Source: Mediterranea sp. An20
GTDB taxonomy: Bacteria > Bacteroidota > Bacteroidia > Bacteroidales > Bacteroidaceae
Direction of reading: 5' to 3'
Assembly: GCF_002160055.1 (NCBI RefSeq)
Contig: NZ_NFJV01000002.1
Location: 124,001-188,000, forward strand
DNA: 64,000 nt
Each line of letters starts with the position of its first letter. Position 1 is the stretch's first letter. The position numbers and the translations under genes were made by a program. The notes beneath the pieces were generated by a model. That model was not told the origin of the DNA and ran no database searches. It saw nothing but the letters and a program-made list of their open reading frames with translations. Below, piece after piece: positions 203 through 9,953 of the stretch.

Positions 203-1036
203 ATGGAAGAAGCATATATACTTTGCGCGATAGACGCCGCTCTGCAGGCCGGAGCGGAGATTATGGAGGTTTATACTGACCCGAAGTCCGACTTCCAAGT
301 GGAAAGAAAGGCTGACAATTCTCCGCTGACCATTGCTGATAAACGTGCCCATCAGGCCATCAGCCGGTTGCTCCGGCAAGGGAGCCCTTATCCTCTGTTG
401 AGCGAAGAGGGAAAACTTACTCCTTATGAACAGAGAGCTGCGTGGGAAGAACTGTGGATAGTGGACCCCCTGGACGGTACTAAGGAATTCATTAAACGGA
501 ACGGAGAGTTTACCGTGAATATCGCCTGGGTGCGCCGGGGTGTTCCGGTTGCAGGGGTCATTTATGTGCCGGTAAAGCAGTGTCTGTATTTTGCCTCCGA
601 AGACTTGGGGGCTTTCAAGATAGAGAACATAACCCGGCTGGATGGCGCTTCGTTGGGCGATTTGACAGCCCGGGCTGTACGCTTGCCGTTGAAAGAACAG
701 CGGGATGAGTTTGTCATTGTGGCCTCACGTTCGCATTCTACCCCGGAAACGGAAGCGTATATAGAACGTATGCGGCAGAAACATGCAACTGTAAGATTGT
801 GTTCCAGTGGAAGTTCACTGAAGATTTGCCTGGTGGCCGAAGGCAAGGCTGATGTATATCCTCGTTTTGCACCTACGATGGAGTGGGACACGGCAGCAGG
901 GCATGCTATCATGCGTGCCGTGGGCGGAGAAATCTGGCAGGCAGGAGGTGAGGGACCGTTGCGCTATAATAAAGGAGATTTGTTGAATCCGTGGTTCATT
1001 GTGCTCCCTGCAGAAGCAGGTCGCATGGCCGATTGA
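203..1036 (+). CDS. cysQ: 3'(2'),5'-bisphosphate nucleotidase CysQ
   Basis: Predicted 277-residue inositol-monophosphatase-superfamily enzyme. It should hydrolyse 3'-phosphoadenosine 5'-phosphate (PAP), the inhibitory by-product of PAPS use, to AMP and phosphate. Visible motifs are the metal-binding DPLDGTKEF at about residues 88-96 and WDTAAGH at about 228-234, both typical of the family. An in-frame ATG at 155 would add 16 residues, but a promoter-like element lies between the two, so 203 is preferred. It heads an operon with an anion transporter, cysC, cysD, cysN and a sulfotransferase. This context makes PAP recycling during sulfonation more likely than a role in inositol metabolism. The cytoplasmic location is inferred from the absence of a signal peptide. 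Confidence 0.9.
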   Translation: MEEAYILCAIDAALQAGAEIMEVYTDPKSDFQVERKADNSPLTIADKRAHQAISRLLRQGSPYPLLSEEGKLTPYEQRAAWEELWIVDPLDGTKEFIKRNGEFTVNIAWVRRGVPVAGVIYVPVKQCLYFASEDLGAFKIENITRLDGASLGDLTARAVRLPLKEQRDEFVIVASRSHSTPETEAYIERMRQKHATVRLCSSGSSLKICLVAEGKADVYPRFAPTMEWDTAAGHAIMRAVGGEIWQAGGEGPLRYNKGDLLNPWFIVLPAEAGRMAD

Positions 1037-1056
1037 TATAACATAGATCTGAGGTT

Positions 1057-2628
1057 ATGAGTTTCGAGATAATTTTTGTATTGTTGGGATTGGTCGGAAT
1101 GCTGGTGGCGCTTATTCTTGACAAGATGCGCCCGGGTATTGTACTGCTGAGTCTGGTGGTGCTGTTCATGGTGGCGGGCATCATCACTCCTCAACAGATG
1201 GTGGCCGGTTTCAGCAACCGGGGCATGATTACTGTAGCGTTGCTGTTTCTGGTAAGCGAAGGAATCCGGCAAAGCGGTGCGTTGACGACGGTGGTCAAGA
1301 AACTTCTGCCGGAGAAAGGTACGTCGGTCACTAAAGCGCAGCTGCGCATTTTGCCGGTGGTAAGTGCCTTTTCTGCTTTTCTTAATAATACTCCGGTCGT
1401 GGTTATTTTTGCTCCTATACTGAAGAACTGGGCAAGAAAAGTCGGTTTGTCTTGCACCAAGTTCCTTATACCTTTGTCCTATGCCACTATTCTGGGCGGT
1501 CTGTGTACCCTCATCGGGACATCCACCAACTTGGTGGTGCATGGTATGATGATAGACCGTGGGCTGGGTGGACTGAAAATGTTCGATTTGGCTTTTATCG
1601 GCATTCCCATTACGGTAGTGGGACTGTTGTTCATTGTGCTGGCTTCCAAGAAACTGTTGCCGGCCGACCGCTCTGATAATTTCGAGGAGGAAGAGGCAGA
1701 TGCGGCAGAAGATACCGGGCGCCATATCGTAGAAGTGGTATTGGCCTCGCGCTTTCCGGGGTTGAAACGCAAACTGAAGACTTTCGATTTTAAGCGGCGT
1801 TATGGGGCAGAAGTAAAGGAGATACGCCAGAATGGACAAGTGATTACGGAGAACCTGGGTGAGGTCCGGCTGCAGGAAGGTGACACGCTGGTACTGCTGG
1901 CCGATGATGCCTTTACCCGCACGTGGGGAGATTCGTCCGTTTTCCTGATGATGACCAATGGGCAGGAAATCCCGGCCAATCCGGTCCCGTCATGGAAGAA
2001 GTGGACGGCCTTTTCACTGCTTATTGTCATGATTGTAGGAGCCACTATTGGCGAGTTGCCTTATTTTCAGGAGCACTTCCCCAAAGTGAAGATGGATATG
2101 TTTTTCTTTGCAGCCGTAACTGCTGTGGTGATGGCATGGCTTAAGATGTTTCCGCCTAAGAAATATACGAAATACATCAGTTGGGACATCCTTATCACCA
2201 TAGCCTGTGCTTTTGCCATCAGTTCGGCGATGGAAGAGTCGGGACTGGCGGCACTGATTGCCAATTTTATCAAGAGTGTGGCAGGTTCGCTGGGAGCATG
2301 GGGAGCTTTGGCATTGCTTTATATGGTGACGCTTCTTATTACGGAGTTGATTACCAATAATGCTGCCGCAGCGCTTGCTTTCCCGCTGGCTTTGGAGACG
2401 GCGGCAAAGTTCGGGGTCGACCCGATGCCTTTTTTTATTGCCATCTGCATCGCCGCATCGGCAGGTTTCGCCACTCCCATCGGCTATCAGACCAACCTGA
2501 TAGTGCAGGGCGCCGGTAATTATAAGTTTACGGATTTTGTGAAGATAGGTCTTCCTATGGATTTTATTGTGATGATTATTTCCGTAGGGCTGATTCCGCT
2601 GATATGGCCGTTTACGAAGATGGTATAG
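1057..2628 (+). CDS. SLC13/DASS-family anion transporter with TrkA-C domain, probable sulfate importer
   Basis: Predicted 523-residue inner-membrane protein with many hydrophobic segments in two halves. The halves flank a soluble insert at roughly residues 215-290 that reads as an RCK_C/TrkA-C domain (pattern V.EI..NG..I.E....L..GD.LVL). The pairs NNTP (first half) and ITNNAAA (second half) fit the paired SNT-like substrate and sodium motifs of the divalent anion:sodium symporter family. Members carry sulfate, dicarboxylates or phosphate. Lying 20 bp after cysQ and before cysC-cysD-cysN, it is inferred to bring in sulfate for PAPS synthesis. Many relatives have two TrkA-C domains and only one is evident here. 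The substrate is not proven by sequence. Confidence 0.85.
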   Translation: MSFEIIFVLLGLVGMLVALILDKMRPGIVLLSLVVLFMVAGIITPQQMVAGFSNRGMITVALLFLVSEGIRQSGALTTVVKKLLPEKGTSVTKAQLRILPVVSAFSAFLNNTPVVVIFAPILKNWARKVGLSCTKFLIPLSYATILGGLCTLIGTSTNLVVHGMMIDRGLGGLKMFDLAFIGIPITVVGLLFIVLASKKLLPADRSDNFEEEEADAAEDTGRHIVEVVLASRFPGLKRKLKTFDFKRRYGAEVKEIRQNGQVITENLGEVRLQEGDTLVLLADDAFTRTWGDSSVFLMMTNGQEIPANPVPSWKKWTAFSLLIVMIVGATIGELPYFQEHFPKVKMDMFFFAAVTAVVMAWLKMFPPKKYTKYISWDILITIACAFAISSAMEESGLAALIANFIKSVAGSLGAWGALALLYMVTLLITELITNNAAAALAFPLALETAAKFGVDPMPFFIAICIAASAGFATPIGYQTNLIVQGAGNYKFTDFVKIGLPMDFIVMIISVGLIPLIWPFTKMV

Positions 2629-2722
2629 GCTCCTCCCGCCGGGAAGGAAACTCGATGCTGAGGGAGAACCGCCTCCCCAAGTGGGAGCATGGAGGGGCTT
2701 GCAACTTTAATTGATTTGTTTT

Positions 2723-3325
2723 ATGGAACACATTTATCCGATATTCGACAAAATGCTGACGAGGGCAGACAAAGAAAGCCTGTTAGGTCAGCGGGGGCTG
2801 ATGATTTGGTTTACGGGACTGAGCGGCTCGGGCAAGAGCACCATTGCCATTGCTTTGGAGCGTGAATTGCACCGTCGCGGTATCTTGTGCCGTATCCTGG
2901 ATGGCGACAACATCCGTAGTGGCATCAACAACAATTTGGGATTTACAGAGGCCGACCGCGTGGAAAACATCCGTCGCATTGCCGAGGTGTCCAGGCTGTT
3001 TGTAGATACTGGCATTGTGACATTGGCGGCATTCATCAGCCCGAACAATGACATCCGTGAAATGGCCGCCCGCATTATCGGGAAAGACGACTTTGTGGAA
3101 GTGTATGTGAGCACGCCTCTGGAAGAGTGTGAAAGGCGTGATGTAAAAGGGCTTTATGCCAAGGCCCGGCGGGGAGAAATCAAGAACTTTACCGGCATTT
3201 CGGCTCCTTTTGAGGCTCCTCTGCACCCGTCTCTTACTTTGGATACTTCCGTGCTCAGCGTGGAAGAATCGGTCAATGAACTGCTAACGCTTGTATTGCC
3301 GAAAATTCGGCCGGACAGGAAATAG
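2723..3325 (+). CDS. cysC: Adenylyl-sulfate kinase CysC
   Basis: Predicted 200-residue APS kinase that phosphorylates adenosine 5'-phosphosulfate with ATP to give PAPS, the sulfonate donor. The P-loop GLSGSGKST is at residues 32-40, followed by LDGDNIR and the segment FISPN typical of APS kinases. The ATG at 2723 is preferred over an upstream in-frame TTG at 2711. It is a stand-alone kinase rather than fused to CysN as in some bacteria. It sits about 95 bp after the transporter and 27 bp before cysD. With cysD and cysN it completes the route from sulfate to PAPS. Confidence 0.95.
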   Translation: MEHIYPIFDKMLTRADKESLLGQRGLMIWFTGLSGSGKSTIAIALERELHRRGILCRILDGDNIRSGINNNLGFTEADRVENIRRIAEVSRLFVDTGIVTLAAFISPNNDIREMAARIIGKDDFVEVYVSTPLEECERRDVKGLYAKARRGEIKNFTGISAPFEAPLHPSLTLDTSVLSVEESVNELLTLVLPKIRPDRK

Positions 3326-3352
3326 AAATAACCAAAGACTATAGTCTGCAAA

Positions 3353-4261
3353 ATGGAAGAATATAAATTGAGCCACCTGAAAGAACTCGAAGCCGAGTCT
3401 ATACACATAATCCGCGAGGTGGCCGCGGAATTTGAGAATCCGGTGATGCTCTACAGCATTGGAAAAGACTCGTCGGTGATGGTGCGCCTGGCAGAGAAGG
3501 CTTTCTATCCTGGCAAGGTGCCTTTTCCTCTGATGCACATCGATTCAAAGTGGAAATTTAAGGAAATGATTCAGTTCCGTGATGAGTATGCCAAGAAGTA
3601 TGGCTGGAACCTGATTGTGGAAAGCAACATGGAGGCATTCAAGGCAGGTGTAGGACCTTTTACGCACGGCAGCAAGGTGCATACCGACTTGATGAAAACC
3701 CAGGCTTTGCTGCACGCTCTCGATAAGTATAAGTTCGATGCGGCTTTTGGCGGGGCCCGCCGCGACGAAGAAAAGTCGCGTGCCAAGGAACGTATTTTCT
3801 CTTTCCGCGACCGCTTCCACCAGTGGGACCCCAAGAACCAGCGCCCGGAACTGTGGGACATTTACAATGCCCGCATACACAAAGGGGAGAGCATCCGTGT
3901 GTTTCCGCTGAGCAACTGGACGGAGCTGGACATCTGGCAATATATCCGTCTGGAGAATATTCCTATCGTTCCGCTTTATTTTGCCAAGGAGCGTCCGTGC
4001 GTGGAGATTGACGGTAATCTGATTATGCCGGATGACGACCGCCTGCCCGAACAATACCGCGACAAGATTCAGATGAAGAAAATCCGTTTCCGTACCTTGG
4101 GTTGCTGGCCGCTGACCGGTGCCGTTGAAAGTGAAGCGGATACCATCGAAAAGATTGTGGAAGAGATGATGACTACCACCAAGAGCGAACGCACCACACG
4201 TGTCATCGATTTCGACCAGGATTCCAGCATGGAGCAGAAGAAGCGTGAGGGGTACTTCTAA
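3353..4261 (+). CDS. cysD: Sulfate adenylyltransferase subunit 2 CysD
   Basis: Predicted 302-residue catalytic subunit of ATP sulfurylase, which makes APS and pyrophosphate from ATP and sulfate. The PP-loop appears as SIGKDSSVM at residues 35-43, and the conserved [15 protein letters not shown] segment and the RFRTLGC(W)P(L)TGA region are typical of CysD. It is the usual length for the family. The stop codon is followed immediately by the next in-frame ATG, and cysN starts about 30 bp later, so translation is probably coupled. It acts as a heterodimer with the CysN GTPase in the cytoplasm. Confidence 0.96.
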
Positions 4262-4291
4262 ATGAAGAACGAAGATTTAAGAATGAAGAAT

Positions 4292-5752
4292 ATGGAAGAC
4301 AATAAATTAGATATAAAAGCATTCCTTGACCGGGATGAACAGAAGGATTTGCTCCGCTTCCTGACGGCAGGCAGCGTGGATGACGGCAAGTCTACTTTAA
4401 TCGGCCGCCTCCTGTTCGATAGCAAGAAGATATACGAGGACCAGTTGGATGCGTTGGAACGCGACAGCAAGCGCGTGGGTAATGCCGGTGATCATATTGA
4501 TTATGCCCTTTTGCTGGACGGACTGAAAGCCGAGCGCGAGCAGGGCATCACCATTGATGTGGCTTATCGCTATTTCTCGACCAACAAGCGTAAGTTTATC
4601 ATTGCCGACACACCGGGACACGAGCAATACACACGCAATATGATTACGGGCGGTTCTACGGCCAATCTGGCTGTGATTCTGGTTGATGCCCGTCTGGGAG
4701 TTATCACGCAGACCCGCCGTCACACGTTTCTGGTATCTCTGTTGGGCATTAAGCACGTGGTGCTGGCTGTGAACAAGATGGATTTGGTGGACTTTTCTGA
4801 AGAACGTTTCAATGAGATTGTGGCAGAATACAGGAGTTTCATTGAGCCGTTGGGAGTATCCGATGTGGTGTGCATCCCGTTGTCGGCACTGGATGGCGAT
4901 AATGTGGTGCAGAAGTCCGACCGTACGCCTTGGTATCAGGGGCCTGCCTTGCTCGATTTTCTGGAGACGGTGCACATCGGCAACGACCACAACCTGACAG
5001 ATTTCCGTTTTCCTGTGCAGTACGTGTTACGCCCCAACCTTAATTTCCGGGGATTCTGCGGCAAGGTCGCATCGGGCGTGGTGCACAAAGGCGACGAAGT
5101 AGTGGCTTTGCCCTCCGGCAAGAAATCGCATATCAAGAGTATTGTGACTTATGACGGTGAGTTGGATTACGCTTTCCCGCCGCAATCTGTCACGTTGACG
5201 CTGGAAGATGAAATTGACGTTTCACGTGGCGAGATGCTGGTGCATCCGGATGCCTTGCCCGTGACAGGACGTAATTTTGAAGCGATGCTGGTGTGGATGG
5301 ACGAGGAGCCGATGGATTTCAACAAATCGTTTTTTATCAAGCAGACTACACATACAAGCCGCTCGCACGTGGACAGCATCAAATACAAGGTGGATGTAAA
5401 CACGATGGAGCATTTGTCGTTGGAAAACGGCAAGCTTACCAAAGAATCCCTGCCCATGCAGCTCAACCAGATTGCCCATGTGGTCATAACTACTGCGCAG
5501 GAACTCTATTTCGATCCTTACCGGCAGAACAAGGCGACGGGAGCTTTTATCCTGATAGATCCTATCAGCAACAATACAAGTGCAGTGGGAATGATTATCG
5601 GCCCGGTACCAGAGGAGGAGATGCATGCCGATGCCGGCCTGCCGGTGCTCGATTTGCCCCGGTTGGGTATTGCTCCCGAACATTATGAGGCTATAGACAA
5701 GGCTGTGAAGGAGTTGAACCGTCAGGGACTGGAAATTGTGGTGCGGAAATAA
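4292..5752 (+). CDS. cysN: Sulfate adenylyltransferase subunit 1 (GTPase) CysN
   Basis: Predicted 486-residue EF-Tu-like GTPase that drives sulfate adenylylation by CysD. G1 is GSVDDGKST (27-35), G3 is DTPGH (106-110) and G4 is NKMD (161-164), followed by beta-barrel domains 2 and 3. There is no C-terminal APS kinase, consistent with the separate cysC. An ATG at 4262, abutting the cysD stop, would add ten residues of a repetitive Met/Lys/Asn-rich leader. The ATG at 4292 gives the family-like start [12 protein letters not shown] and is preferred. The next gene is the sulfotransferase, 52 bp downstream. Confidence 0.95.
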
Positions 5753-5804
5753 GGAGGCCAAGATAGAATCGAACCGATTGTCAATCGTTAATTGTTAATG
5801 GAAT

Positions 5805-6911
5805 ATGGGCTTATTAGAATTCAACAAACTACCCATCAATACTTTGGTCGGTGCAGACTGGAAGACTTTCAGGCAGGTGACGCGCGGCCGTGTGGTCGAT
5901 CCGGCGTATCGGAATAAGTACAGGCTGACGAAGGTTGTCTGCCGCTTGCTTTCTACGCTGGTTTCCCTGCAGGACCGGCGTTATGAAAAATTGCTGGCAG
6001 ACAAGCCGCTGGAGCATGACCCTCTCTTTATACTGGGGCATTGGCGAAGCGGGACTACTTTTGTGCACAATGTCTTTTCCTGTGATGCCCATTTCGGCTA
6101 TAATACCACGTACCAGACTGTGTTCCCGCATCTGATGATGTGGGGACAGCCGTTCTTCAAAAAGAACATGAGCTGGCTGATGCCGGACAAGCGTCCTACG
6201 GACAACATGGAGCTGGCTGTGGATTTGCCGCAGGAAGAAGAGTTCGCATTGGCCAATATGATGCCGTATACCTATTATAACTTCTGGTTCTTCCCCAAAT
6301 ACCAGCAAGAGTATGCCGACAAATATTTGCTGTTCAATGATATTGAGCCGGACGAGCTGAAGGTGTTTGAAGAAACTTTCATGAAGCTGATAAAGATTTC
6401 TTTGTGGAATACCCACGGCACGCAGTTTCTCAGCAAGAACCCTCCGCATACGGGGCGGGTGCGCGAACTGGTCAAGATGTTTCCCAATGCCAAGTTCATC
6501 TATCTGGTGCGCAATCCCTATACGGTATTCGAGAGTACCCGGAGCTTTTTTACCAATACCATCCAGCCTTTAAAACTGGAAGACATCACCCCTGAGCAGT
6601 TGGAAAGCAACATCCTTTCCATCTATGCGAAGCTTTACCACAAGTACGAGGCCGACAAAGCCTGCATTCCTGCCGGCAATCTGATAGAGGTGAAGTTTGA
6701 GGATTTCGAGGCCGATGCCATGGGGATGACCGAGCATATCTATCAGGCTCTTTCGCTGCCCGGTTTCACGGAGTCGAAAGCTGCCATCGAAAAATATGTA
6801 GGCGGCAAGAAAGGGTATAAGAAGAATAAGTATAAATACGATGACCGCACCGTGCGTCTGGTGCAGGATAACTGGGGATTTGCCCTGAAGCAGTGGAATT
6901 ACGAACTCTGA
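5805..6911 (+). CDS. PAPS-dependent sulfotransferase
   Basis: Predicted 368-residue cytoplasmic sulfotransferase. The 5'-phosphosulfate loop is FILGHWRSGTTFVHNVF (about 75-91), and the 3'-phosphate-binding segment is FIYLVRNPYTVFESTRSFF (231-249) with the usual Arg and Ser. LSKNPPH at about 209-215 resembles the conserved LLKNP element of bacterial members. It lies directly after a full set of sulfate activation genes and cysQ. From established knowledge, B. thetaiotaomicron carries a sulfotransferase (BT_0416) in this kind of cluster that sulfonates cholesterol and other sterols in the gut. The layout here makes this protein a likely orthologue, but the acceptor cannot be read from sequence; a lipid or envelope glycan acceptor is also possible. 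Confidence 0.9.
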   Translation: MGLLEFNKLPINTLVGADWKTFRQVTRGRVVDPAYRNKYRLTKVVCRLLSTLVSLQDRRYEKLLADKPLEHDPLFILGHWRSGTTFVHNVFSCDAHFGYNTTYQTVFPHLMMWGQPFFKKNMSWLMPDKRPTDNMELAVDLPQEEEFALANMMPYTYYNFWFFPKYQQEYADKYLLFNDIEPDELKVFEETFMKLIKISLWNTHGTQFLSKNPPHTGRVRELVKMFPNAKFIYLVRNPYTVFESTRSFFTNTIQPLKLEDITPEQLESNILSIYAKLYHKYEADKACIPAGNLIEVKFEDFEADAMGMTEHIYQALSLPGFTESKAAIEKYVGGKKGYKKNKYKYDDRTVRLVQDNWGFALKQWNYEL

Positions 6912-6917
6912 CTTCTC

Positions 6918-6982
6918 ATGGAACACAGAGGCACACTGATACACGGAGAGATGCTTTGTGCCTTCGCGCCTCTGCGTTCCAT
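6918..6982. repeat. Imperfect palindrome after the sulfotransferase gene
   Basis: Arms ATGGAACACAGAGGC (6918-6932) and GCCTCTGCGTTCCAT (6968-6982) pair at 14 of 15 positions around a loop of about 35 bases, then comes TTCCTTTT. It may act as a terminator or RNA-stability element between the sulfotransferase and the PCMD gene. It resembles the palindrome before clpP (23944-24012) in its CAGA/TCTGCGT core. Confidence 0.55.
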
Positions 6983-7042: not shown

Positions 7043-8017
7043 ATGAGTATGCAAGCAAGATTTTATCTCTTAAGCCTTCTCTTCGTCTTCCTGGCGTGCG
7101 GACGCCTGGCCGCCCAAGACGATGAAGTCGTGGAGGAAATTCCCTTTGGCAACATGGACCAGTGGATTGACCGCCAGATTCAAGAGTCGGGCATCATTGG
7201 TGGAGAAACCAAGCATGTCTATGCCATAGGGCCGACACAAACGCTGAACAGTAATGAAGCCTATCGGAATATGGGAGGTTCGCCTTGGGCCTCGTCTAAT
7301 GTGATGGCACGGGTGGCAGGCATTACCAAAACCAACACATCGGTTTTCCCCGAAAAACGCGGCGATGGCTATTGTGCCCGCATGGATACGCGCATGGAGA
7401 GCGTGAAAGCATTGGGTTTCATCAATATTACGGTATTGGCTGCCGGCTCCGTGTTCTTGGGAGAAATGCATGAACCTATTACCGGCACCAAGAACCCGAT
7501 GCGGATGCTTGATACTGGCATCCCCTTCACCAAGAAGCCGGAAGCCATTCGCTTTGACTACAAGGTGAAGATGTCCGACCGCCCCAACCGCATACGCGCC
7601 ACGGGCTTCAGCCGAATCAAAGACGTGGAAGGGAAAGATTATCCGGAAGTCAACCTGTATCTGCAGAAGCGTTGGGAAGACAAAGACGGAAACATCTATG
7701 CCAAACGCATCGGAACCATGGTGGTGCGTTATGACAAGACCACAGCCGGCTGGCAGAACAATGCCACTTATACCATTCTTTATGGTGATATAACCAATCA
7801 TCCGGACTACAACCCCGACATGATGCGCCTGCAGGTGCAGGAACGCTATGCCGTCAACAGCAAGGGGGAAAGCGTGCCCATCAAAGAGGTGGGCTGGGGG
7901 ACGGCCGATGAGATGCCTACCCACATCCAGCTCCAGTTTACTTCCAGTCATGGCGGCGCATACATCGGTTCGCCGGGCAATTCTTTTTGGATAGACAATG
8001 TGAAATTTGTGTATTGA
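7043..8017 (+). CDS. Secreted PCMD-domain (putative carbohydrate metabolism domain) protein
   Basis: Predicted 324-residue exported protein. A signal peptide with a hydrophobic core covers about residues 7-25, ending near LAAQ. The body resembles the beta-sandwich PCMD family common in Bacteroides, recognisable from the NVMARVAGITKTNTSVFPEKRGDGYCA-type region and the terminal FWIDNVKFVY strand. The molecular function of this family is not established; members are often surface or periplasmic and linked to glycan use. It starts 131 bp after the sulfotransferase, across a palindrome, so it may be the last gene of the sulfonation operon or separately expressed. It contains no sulfatase or transferase motif that I can see. 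Confidence 0.65.
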   Translation: MSMQARFYLLSLLFVFLACGRLAAQDDEVVEEIPFGNMDQWIDRQIQESGIIGGETKHVYAIGPTQTLNSNEAYRNMGGSPWASSNVMARVAGITKTNTSVFPEKRGDGYCARMDTRMESVKALGFINITVLAAGSVFLGEMHEPITGTKNPMRMLDTGIPFTKKPEAIRFDYKVKMSDRPNRIRATGFSRIKDVEGKDYPEVNLYLQKRWEDKDGNIYAKRIGTMVVRYDKTTAGWQNNATYTILYGDITNHPDYNPDMMRLQVQERYAVNSKGESVPIKEVGWGTADEMPTHIQLQFTSSHGGAYIGSPGNSFWIDNVKFVY

Positions 8018-8619: not shown

Positions 8620-8650
8620 TTTGGCGTTATAAAAAATGTGCCTATTTTTG
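8620..8650 (+). promoter_or_regulatory. Bacteroides-type promoter of the YjbH-like operon
   Basis: TTTG at 8620-8623 and TATTTTTG at 8643-8650 are separated by exactly 19 bp, the Bacteroides primary sigma consensus. The transcript would carry a short leader with the hairpin TTGTATC/GATACAA at about 8660-8678 before the ATG at 8685. Confidence 0.8.
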
Positions 8651-8684: not shown

Positions 8685-9953
8685 ATGAAAAGAATGAGGT
8701 ATAACAGATACTTAGACATGACAAAGTGCCTAACTGCTAAAACAATAATCCTGCTTGCAGTGTTTTTCTTGCAAGGTGTGGTGATTGCCAAGGCGCAATC
8801 CGTGACGGGAGAGAGCACAGTGGATGTTTTGGTAGAGATGGGCTTTGAGAATGTCGGGTGCACGGAAGATGCGGATGAACGTGTGTACGTGTTGCAGAAT
8901 TCGGCATATCGTTTGCAGGGAGTCGGTATCGGAAAGGCTGTGGATGTTATTCAGAATATGGGCCTGCCGGAAGAAAAGGCTTGCCGCATTATTGTGCTGG
9001 ATAACAATGTGCCTCAGATTTCTCTTTACTACCAACCTGTGAAAGGGGATACCGCCGCAGTGGCTGAACGTCGCGACTGGAATGTCAGCTATGACTTGGA
9101 AGATTCCTGGCAGAAGGTGAGGAGGGTGAAGAGAAAGAATAGTTCTTTGTTCAAGGTTGATATTGTGGTGTATCCGGAGTTTATGTTCCAGAATTTTAAA
9201 CTCTCGCGGATGTATGACATTGTCCTTAACCTATCTCCTGCCATTGAAATCTCTTTGTGGAAAGGTATGAAAGCTACGGCACAAGTCATTTTCCCGATAG
9301 TAAATGATTATGGGGCGCGTTACGAACAGATACGACCCGGTTATGTGACGCTGTCGCAGTCGGTGCGTTTGCCGAAGAATACATTTCTGACGGCAAGCGT
9401 CGGCTTTTTTAATAATTTCCGCTGGGGAGTAGACGTTCGTGCCAAACATCATTTTAAAGATGAGCGTTTCTATATAGATGCGCGGTTGGCATACACCGGG
9501 CGTGGCTGGTTTGATCACTGGGCTTATTATCACGGCCATAAGTGGACGCTGACCGGGCATGTGGGTGGAAGCTTTTATTGGCCGAAATACAATACCCAGT
9601 TCTCCATCAAGGCGGAACGCTTCCTCATGGAAGAATTCGGATTGCGTGGCGAGATGGTCCGTCATTTCCGTTATGCCTCTATCGGGTTCTACGGCTTGAA
9701 GGTGTTCGGAAAAGATGATGCGGCAAATAACGGCTTTAATGCAGGTTTCTTGTTTCAGATAGCCTTGCCGCCGTATAAATATAAACGCAAAGGATACATC
9801 CCGCGTGTGGTTGGAGGTGATTTTGGCATTCGTTATAATGCAGGAAATGAACTGTATTATGGCAGCGGATTCCGCAACAACTCGAATGACAACACCTTGA
9901 GGGAAAATAGTTTTAATCCATATTTTATAAAGAGTGAATTGTTAAATTTTTAA
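8685..9953 (+). CDS. Exported protein resembling the middle and C-terminal half of YjbH
   Basis: Predicted 422-residue protein with an N-terminal signal peptide ending near residue 38 (AKAQS). A small alpha/beta region follows (about 45-120: VLVEMGFENV, a strand-rich centre, then IIVLDNNVPQISLYY). This resembles the linker domain of YjbH proteins. The remainder is rich in alternating aromatic strands (about 150-422), consistent with an outer-membrane beta-barrel, with late segments such as FNAGFLFQIALPP. YjbH/GfcD-type proteins serve exopolysaccharide or capsule export. Here the usual first barrel is missing and appears to be encoded by the gene at 10988. A second in-frame ATG at 8718 is a possible start. 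The family assignment is by motif resemblance only. Confidence 0.6.
   Translation: MKRMRYNRYLDMTKCLTAKTIILLAVFFLQGVVIAKAQSVTGESTVDVLVEMGFENVGCTEDADERVYVLQNSAYRLQGVGIGKAVDVIQNMGLPEEKACRIIVLDNNVPQISLYYQPVKGDTAAVAERRDWNVSYDLEDSWQKVRRVKRKNSSLFKVDIVVYPEFMFQNFKLSRMYDIVLNLSPAIEISLWKGMKATAQVIFPIVNDYGARYEQIRPGYVTLSQSVRLPKNTFLTASVGFFNNFRWGVDVRAKHHFKDERFYIDARLAYTGRGWFDHWAYYHGHKWTLTGHVGGSFYWPKYNTQFSIKAERFLMEEFGLRGEMVRHFRYASIGFYGLKVFGKDDAANNGFNAGFLFQIALPPYKYKRKGYIPRVVGGDFGIRYNAGNELYYGSGFRNNSNDNTLRENSFNPYFIKSELLNF

Follow-up and report, generated by a model that had tools for sequence, protein, structure and literature searches.

Clusters that pair the synthesis of 3'-phosphoadenosine 5'-phosphosulfate (PAPS) with a sulfotransferase acting on gut sterols are known from Bacteroides, and the original steroid-sulfonation paper is reportedly that of Yao et al. 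(Nat Microbiol, 2022). In Bacteroides thetaiotaomicron, BT_0416 converts cholesterol to cholesterol sulfate, both in Escherichia coli and in vitro, and its deletion abolishes the product (PMC9417993). Bt_0411-Bt_0415 are described as putative PAPS genes, with BT_0412 as the importer, and identical clusters are reported in B. ovatus and B. fragilis; Bt_0412 and Bt_0416 are induced by cholesterol, a sphingolipid-null mutant still makes cholesterol sulfate, and both cholesterol sulfate and serum cholesterol are altered in mice carrying a BT_0416 mutant (PMC9417993). B. dorei YGMCC0564 has a homologous cluster with a cholesterol-induced sulfotransferase homologue (PMC10666794), reviews describe flat-ring steroids as substrates of the B. 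thetaiotaomicron enzyme and report activity for a relative in Parabacteroides merdae (PMC12667688, PMC11271093), and BT_0416-like enzymes are described as common in Bacteroides (PMC10932419). Here we analyse a stretch of 64,000 nucleotides from Mediterranea sp. An20, referred to as the window (C12:124001-188000 of a 3.84-Mb genome in 88 contigs, 96.07% complete). Six genes at 203-6911 of the window probably form one transcription-unit-like operon that, judged by its sequence, would be the counterpart of BT_0411-BT_0416 and would sulfate sterols or steroids, a reading that we hold with good confidence. The locus is not new in kind; it belongs to the already published cluster type. The six genes are all open and intact, on the + strand and in the order CysQ, transporter, CysC, CysD, CysN, sulfotransferase:

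203-1036, + strand: CysQ, a 3'(2'),5'-bisphosphate nucleotidase for removal of 3'-phosphoadenosine 5'-phosphate (PAP), starting at the ATG at 203; TIGR01331, 258.6 bits against a cut-off of 228.8.
1057-2628, + strand: anion transporter of the PF03600/PF00939 type, a probable sulfate importer, of sequence type A; PF03600, 204 bits, and PF00939, 51.9 bits, both above cut-off.
2723-3325, + strand: CysC, the adenosine 5'-phosphosulfate (APS) kinase that makes PAPS; TIGR00455, 234.8 bits, and PF01583, 213.5 bits; P-loop GLSGSGKST in the translation.
3353-4261, + strand: CysD, ATP sulfurylase small subunit; TIGR02039, 503.3 bits, above cut-off.
4262-5752, + strand: CysN, ATP sulfurylase GTPase subunit; PRK05124, 712 bits, above cut-off.
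5805-6911, + strand: PAPS-dependent sulfotransferase (Sulfotransfer_3), the BT_0416 counterpart; PF13469, 145 bits against a cut-off of 27.

The sequence-only reading had described six genes in a row that lead from anion uptake to PAP removal, and the family models agree with it gene by gene. The curated NCBIfam cut-offs are reached by four of the six (CysQ, CysC, CysD and CysN), and the sulfotransferase is without a match in the NCBIfam model search. For these scans CysQ was read from its third codon (position 209) and CysC from a TTG further upstream (2711), and the true start of CysN is probably 4292, as judged by the lengths of six named relatives (476-490 residues). The transporter scores below the cut-off of the DASS subfamily model (TIGR00785, 102.9 bits against 198.6), so that sulfate as its substrate is taken from context; its match to TrkA_C is weak (19.7 bits, below cut-off). 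The unit seems to start at cysQ, since the nearest same-strand open reading frame (ORF) on its 5' side, a lipoprotein-like one (L214 9329-9961), stops ~240 bases earlier. The Bacteroides promoter pattern TTTG-N17-21-TANNTTTG has no match before cysQ inside the window; over the whole window it occurs six times against 1.2 expected, once (8620-8650) just before an ORF at 8685. A repeat search found no second copy in the window of positions 6921-6940, past the end of the sulfotransferase. The GC content of the operon (0.505) equals that of the window (0.502) and thus gives no sign of a recent foreign origin.

That the locus makes PAPS and uses it for sulfonation, with sulfate not being reduced to serve cysteine synthesis, is supported by the content of the genome. 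The earlier observation that neither PAPS reductase nor sulfite reductase is encoded in the locus is correct and extends to the 96.07%-complete assembly, where PF01077 (nitrite/sulfite reductase) has no match (11 of the 14 control genomes were positive) and the PF01507 search found no CysH, its two matches being CysD and a 429-residue DUF3440 protein (308.8 bits). The combination of CysH and sulfite reductase, by which an assimilatory sulfate reduction operon is recognized, was accordingly not found. The DUF3440 protein (L083 910-2199, contig G000:C67) has a PAPS-reductase-type domain, is not CysH and is presumably IbrA-like. The window sulfotransferase is the single PF13469 match in the genome. 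Against PF00685 it scores 27.3 bits (cut-off 22), far under its 145 for PF13469, and the genome scan with PF00685 returned this same gene only, at 20.7 bits and below cut-off; the cytosolic SULT family (Sulfotransfer_1, PF00685) is not its best-matching family. PF09037 and PF03567 gave no matches in the genome and likewise none in the control genomes, so that these two negatives carry no weight. On this showing, PAPS in the source cell has one detected consumer, the window sulfotransferase. One term of the sequence-only reading, the label 'sulfate-to-sulfonate', needs replacing, as O-sulfonation yields a sulfate ester and not a sulfonate.

Because B. thetaiotaomicron is not among the best 80 of 219 relatives kept in the named-genome scan (sulfotransferases 79-93% identical), and because a probe from that species (BT_2081) had no full match in 158 genomes of the genus (best 96%), the comparison with the BT_0416 cluster was made via B. 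fragilis, B. faecis, which is a close relative of B. thetaiotaomicron, and P. vulgatus. The six genes are collinear with those of B. fragilis (L039), B. faecis (L051) and others, and the window sulfotransferase is 87.0% identical over 368 residues to that of B. fragilis, with 85.6-87.0% for B. fragilis, B. faecis, B. xylanisolvens and others of the same gene order. It also falls in the same sequence clade as the enzymes of the species named in PMC9417993. The proposed link to a BT_0416-type cluster thus holds through a published counterpart, B. fragilis, in gene order as well as in sequence. The values for B. faecis against P. vulgatus (CysQ 66.5%, transporter 77.3%, CysC 85.5%, CysN 84.8%, sulfotransferase 88.6%) are near those given for B. 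dorei against B. thetaiotaomicron (65.8, 77.3, 82.1, 83.3 and 87.5%, respectively; PMC10666794). As in BT_0411-BT_0416, an importer, PAPS synthesis genes and a PAPS sulfotransferase lie adjacent in the window, with no sulfate reduction genes; unlike in that group, the transporter is of another sequence type, and the sterol activity of the window enzyme would follow by analogy. The B. (Phocaeicola) dorei YGMCC0564 cluster has the same enzyme set as the window. Its relative P. vulgatus, unlike the window, has a locus with no match to the PCMD domain after the sulfotransferase.

The named relatives, among the best 80 of 219, comprise Bacteroides, Phocaeicola, Mediterranea, Prevotella and Alloprevotella species together with metagenome-assembled relatives. 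With 22 further stretches they bring the loci that encode an operon-type sulfotransferase to 102, among which 99 proteins are distinct and two entries, L041 and L212, represent the same contig. All six genes are collinear in 81 of the 102, which excludes chance as the explanation of the gene cluster; the other 21 comprise 11 loci cut by a contig end, four that are without a transporter match alone and six real departures. An extra gene between CysC and CysD in distant loci, suggested by the positions of the matches, was considered and dropped, as the one locus checked (L170) has no ORF of at least 150 residues there on the operon strand.

Four residues of the sulfotransferase (R81, K211, R236 and S244), which we take to lie in its PAPS-binding motifs, are invariant in 54 of 54 aligned rows. 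In that alignment of 37 operon-clade rows against 17 diverse other sequences, 140 of the 368 positions reach an identity of 97% or more among the 37 rows, including a hydrophobic stretch at ~101-160, so that the acceptor appears to be the same throughout the operon clade, whatever its identity. The predicted structure (mean pLDDT 92.6) is closest to the mycobacterial enzymes STF9 (2z6v) and STF1 (2zq5), which also come closest among solved structures in the sequence search (E 7.8e-06 and 8.9e-06, respectively). STF9 aligns with Z 25.8 and 3.6 A over 335 residues, at 16% identity over the fold alignment, and STF1 with Z 25.0. Protein-tyrosine sulfotransferase (Z 15.9), heparan sulfotransferases (Z 14.2-13.1) and, near Z 11, human steroid SULTs and phenol sulfotransferases follow, VIA-align having re-examined the folds on Foldseek's list only. 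Human SULT2A1 and SULT2B1b share the chemistry and the core fold (SULT2A1 entries at Z ~11; SULT2B1b on the Foldseek list), differ from the window enzyme in their best Pfam family and are far more distant in fold than STF9. Reading the acceptor from the fold was given up, because comparisons with the PDB put enzymes of different acceptors near each other. The nearest relative with published activity is BT_0416 with its counterparts, and neither sequence nor fold searches gave a closer characterised glycan enzyme; the outcome that would have told against the sterol reading, a glycan or capsule sulfotransferase as closest characterised relative, did not occur.

The sulfotransferase and the PAPS genes also occur together across genomes. 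Among 60 genomes of the same genus, 32 have the sulfotransferase and 34 have CysD (33 over cut-off, plus G053 in two pieces): both are present in 31, CysD only in three, the sulfotransferase only in one and neither in 25 (Fisher's test, P = 1.5e-12, shared ancestry ignored). Restricting the set to the 37 genomes with completeness of 90% or more and contamination of 5% or less gives respective counts of 26, two, none and nine (P = 4.4e-07, again with shared ancestry ignored). The four exceptions are partly explained by contig edges (CysD copies of G033 at such edges; the sulfotransferase of G010 on a 3,364-base contig), by an assimilation set (G035, 87% complete, where CysD, CysN and CysH occur on contig G035:C232, L222, with no sulfotransferase) and by another sulfotransferase (G039, where it neighbours a divergent CysD and a fusion of CysN with CysC). 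In G053 (G053:C67:63640-64520) CysD is matched in two adjacent frames and may be frameshifted in the assembly.

Beyond the genus, 70 of 393 Bacteroidales genomes have a match, with identities of at least 58% in 31, of at most 40% in 39 and none between, and the operon-type enzyme of the former 31 is spread over several families. In 395 genomes of the phylum we found eight matches, of which three, each already counted in the order set, reach 76% or higher and five lie at 26-35%. At 34 loci of the kind with at most 40% identity, neither CysD nor CysN occurs within the stretch at any, a CysC-like gene lies nearby at two and a weak CysQ-like match at two. The identity gap separates operon-type enzymes from other homologues, and a sterol-sulfonation annotation can therefore be limited to the former. 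A tree was built from 89 rows (the window, 56 further loci with a match and 32 of the 80 named ones), and in it the operon clade (55 rows) is one side of a branch with support 100/100 and length 1.2. P. vulgatus and P. massiliensis group with Bacteroides in this tree, apart from P. coprocola and P. plebeius (L040, L042, L063 versus L038, L068, L073, L075), a placement that hints at gene transfer or old duplicates.

The transporter slot behaves differently from the rest of the operon. Compared with its counterparts in B. faecis, B. fragilis, P. vulgatus, B. xylanisolvens and B. clarus, the window transporter reaches an identity of 61.8-64.5%; for CysC, CysD, CysN and the sulfotransferase the range is 79-94%. 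Among the 85 loci with a transporter match, 19 have one at least 85% identical to that of the window, 66 one at 64% or less, and none lies between. The window type is thus the minority one, not that of most species of the group, and PMC9417993, in the text excerpted, does not define the cluster by transporter type. The two types cut across Bacteroides, Phocaeicola and Prevotella, whereas the surrounding genes show no such split, which suggests that the transporter gene may have been exchanged singly, in place, between operons. Loci noted for this two-type slot include the window (1057-2628), L035, L043, L069, L073, L078, L173 and others.

Downstream of the operon lies a candidate seventh gene:

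7043-8017, + strand: PCMD-domain protein with an N-terminal signal-like helix; PF13201, 80.4 bits.

In 75 of the 102 loci the sulfotransferase is followed by a PCMD gene in the same orientation, at most 400 bp away in 74 of them. The match is absent in 27 loci, those of P. vulgatus, P. massiliensis and P. coprocola among them; at least L012 of this group ends right after the sulfotransferase. The window protein is modelled with an N-terminal helix that would suit a signal peptide and with a beta-sandwich resembling 4jrl, 3s30, 4het and 3hbz (Z 17.8-18.1), Bacteroides structures that are titled putative glycoside hydrolases. In the window, the two genes are 131 bases apart and the gap is predicted to fold into a strong stem-loop (-35.2 kcal/mol for the gap), which together disfavour a simple shared transcript. 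The cluster description in the excerpted text of PMC9417993 makes no mention of a PCMD gene. On the other side of the operon, ~1.2-2.2 kb upstream of the window start (L214 7841-8839), two ORFs in different frames resemble, by eye and from their translations, the halves of one phosphodiesterase-like protein, and they adjoin phosphoesterase-like ORFs.

By family, CysD and CysN would make APS from sulfate that the transporter is predicted to import, CysC would make PAPS, and CysQ would clear the PAP that is left. The sulfotransferase would move the sulfonate of PAPS to the 3-hydroxyl of flat-ring gut sterols or steroids such as cholesterol, as published for the B. thetaiotaomicron enzyme. By analogy with that enzyme, a steroid acceptor is likely, and the window enzyme is very probably able to sulfonate sterols; that sterols are the acceptor on which selection acts is a separate claim, which we favour with moderate confidence. 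Several observations weigh against a sterol function. The putative carbohydrate-linked PCMD gene adjoins the sulfotransferase and fits a glycan setting as well as a sterol one. The enzyme stands outside the standard operon in six of the 102 loci (L008, L047, L055, L071, L079, L165); in L055, L079 and L165 an operon-clade sulfotransferase lies apart from the PAPS genes, and CysN is over cut-off elsewhere in all three genomes (G514 for L165). The fold ranking does not favour steroid enzymes, those with different acceptors ranking close together. Finally, 13-15% of the sulfotransferase residues differ from those of the published-cluster species, and sulfotransferases switch acceptor easily.

The alternative that survives best is that the enzyme, accepting flat hydrophobic alcohols, naturally acts on one of the bacterium's own molecules, such as a membrane lipid or surface glycan, and sulfonates sterols only as a side activity. 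The tight conservation of the enzyme in the operon clade, its distribution over several families of Bacteroidales and the putative secreted protein of a carbohydrate-tagged family encoded after it would all fit such a role. The strict conservation equally fits one fixed gut sterol class, however, the literature search found no endogenous sulfated lipid or glycan tied to the operon, and the induction of Bt_0412 and Bt_0416 by cholesterol and the cholesterol sulfate of the sphingolipid-null mutant (PMC9417993) argue against it; we regard an acceptor of this kind as unlikely, if still a serious competitor. A variant of it takes the operon as a seven-gene unit whose selected product is a conserved sulfated surface or lumen molecule, handled outside the cell by the putative secreted PCMD protein, with sterol sulfonation as a by-product noticed because sterols were the substrates tested. 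We consider this improbable.

Sulfonation of a capsule or exopolysaccharide, the acceptor that the sequence-only reading itself had offered as an alternative, could be argued from the heparan sulfotransferases among the fold matches. It seems very doubtful, in that no glycosyltransferase or capsule gene was found inside the operon or in the 10 kb read directly upstream, and a cytosolic enzyme that closes a complete PAPS operon and stays 58-93% identical over several families is unlike the strain-variable capsule genes. Lastly, although CysD, CysN and CysC serve assimilation in other bacteria and G035 of the same genus has CysD-CysN-CysH without this sulfotransferase, a sulfate assimilation operon stripped of its reductases, with the sulfotransferase as bystander, is scarcely credible when no sulfite reductase was found in the 96.07%-complete genome (PF01077), the sulfotransferase keeps its place and sequence in 81 of 102 loci, and both CysC and CysQ are retained, CysC being a gene that assimilation by the APS route would not need.

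A different pairing of PAPS genes and a sulfotransferase was seen in G039, of the same genus and without the sulfotransferase operon, where TauE, CysD and the CysN-CysC fusion lie beside a lasso-peptide-like cluster (L208, L221; G039:C3:850000-881000). This cluster comprises Asn_synthase, Transglut_core3, PqqD and HPr-kinase-like genes, a Sulfotransfer_1 gene and a short possible precursor ORF. Sulfotransferase genes have already been noted in lasso clusters of Firmicutes (PMC8498205), and a dedicated PAPS supply beside a lasso-peptide-like cluster may merit attention.

On the sterol reading of the operon, the locus adds one more species to the Bacteroides that would, by extension from the published enzymes, be able to sulfonate gut sterols, an activity reported to alter the cholesterol levels of B. 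thetaiotaomicron-colonised mice (PMC9417993). Within the genus, the joint occurrence gives a usable rule: the sulfotransferase and the PAPS genes are gained or lost together.

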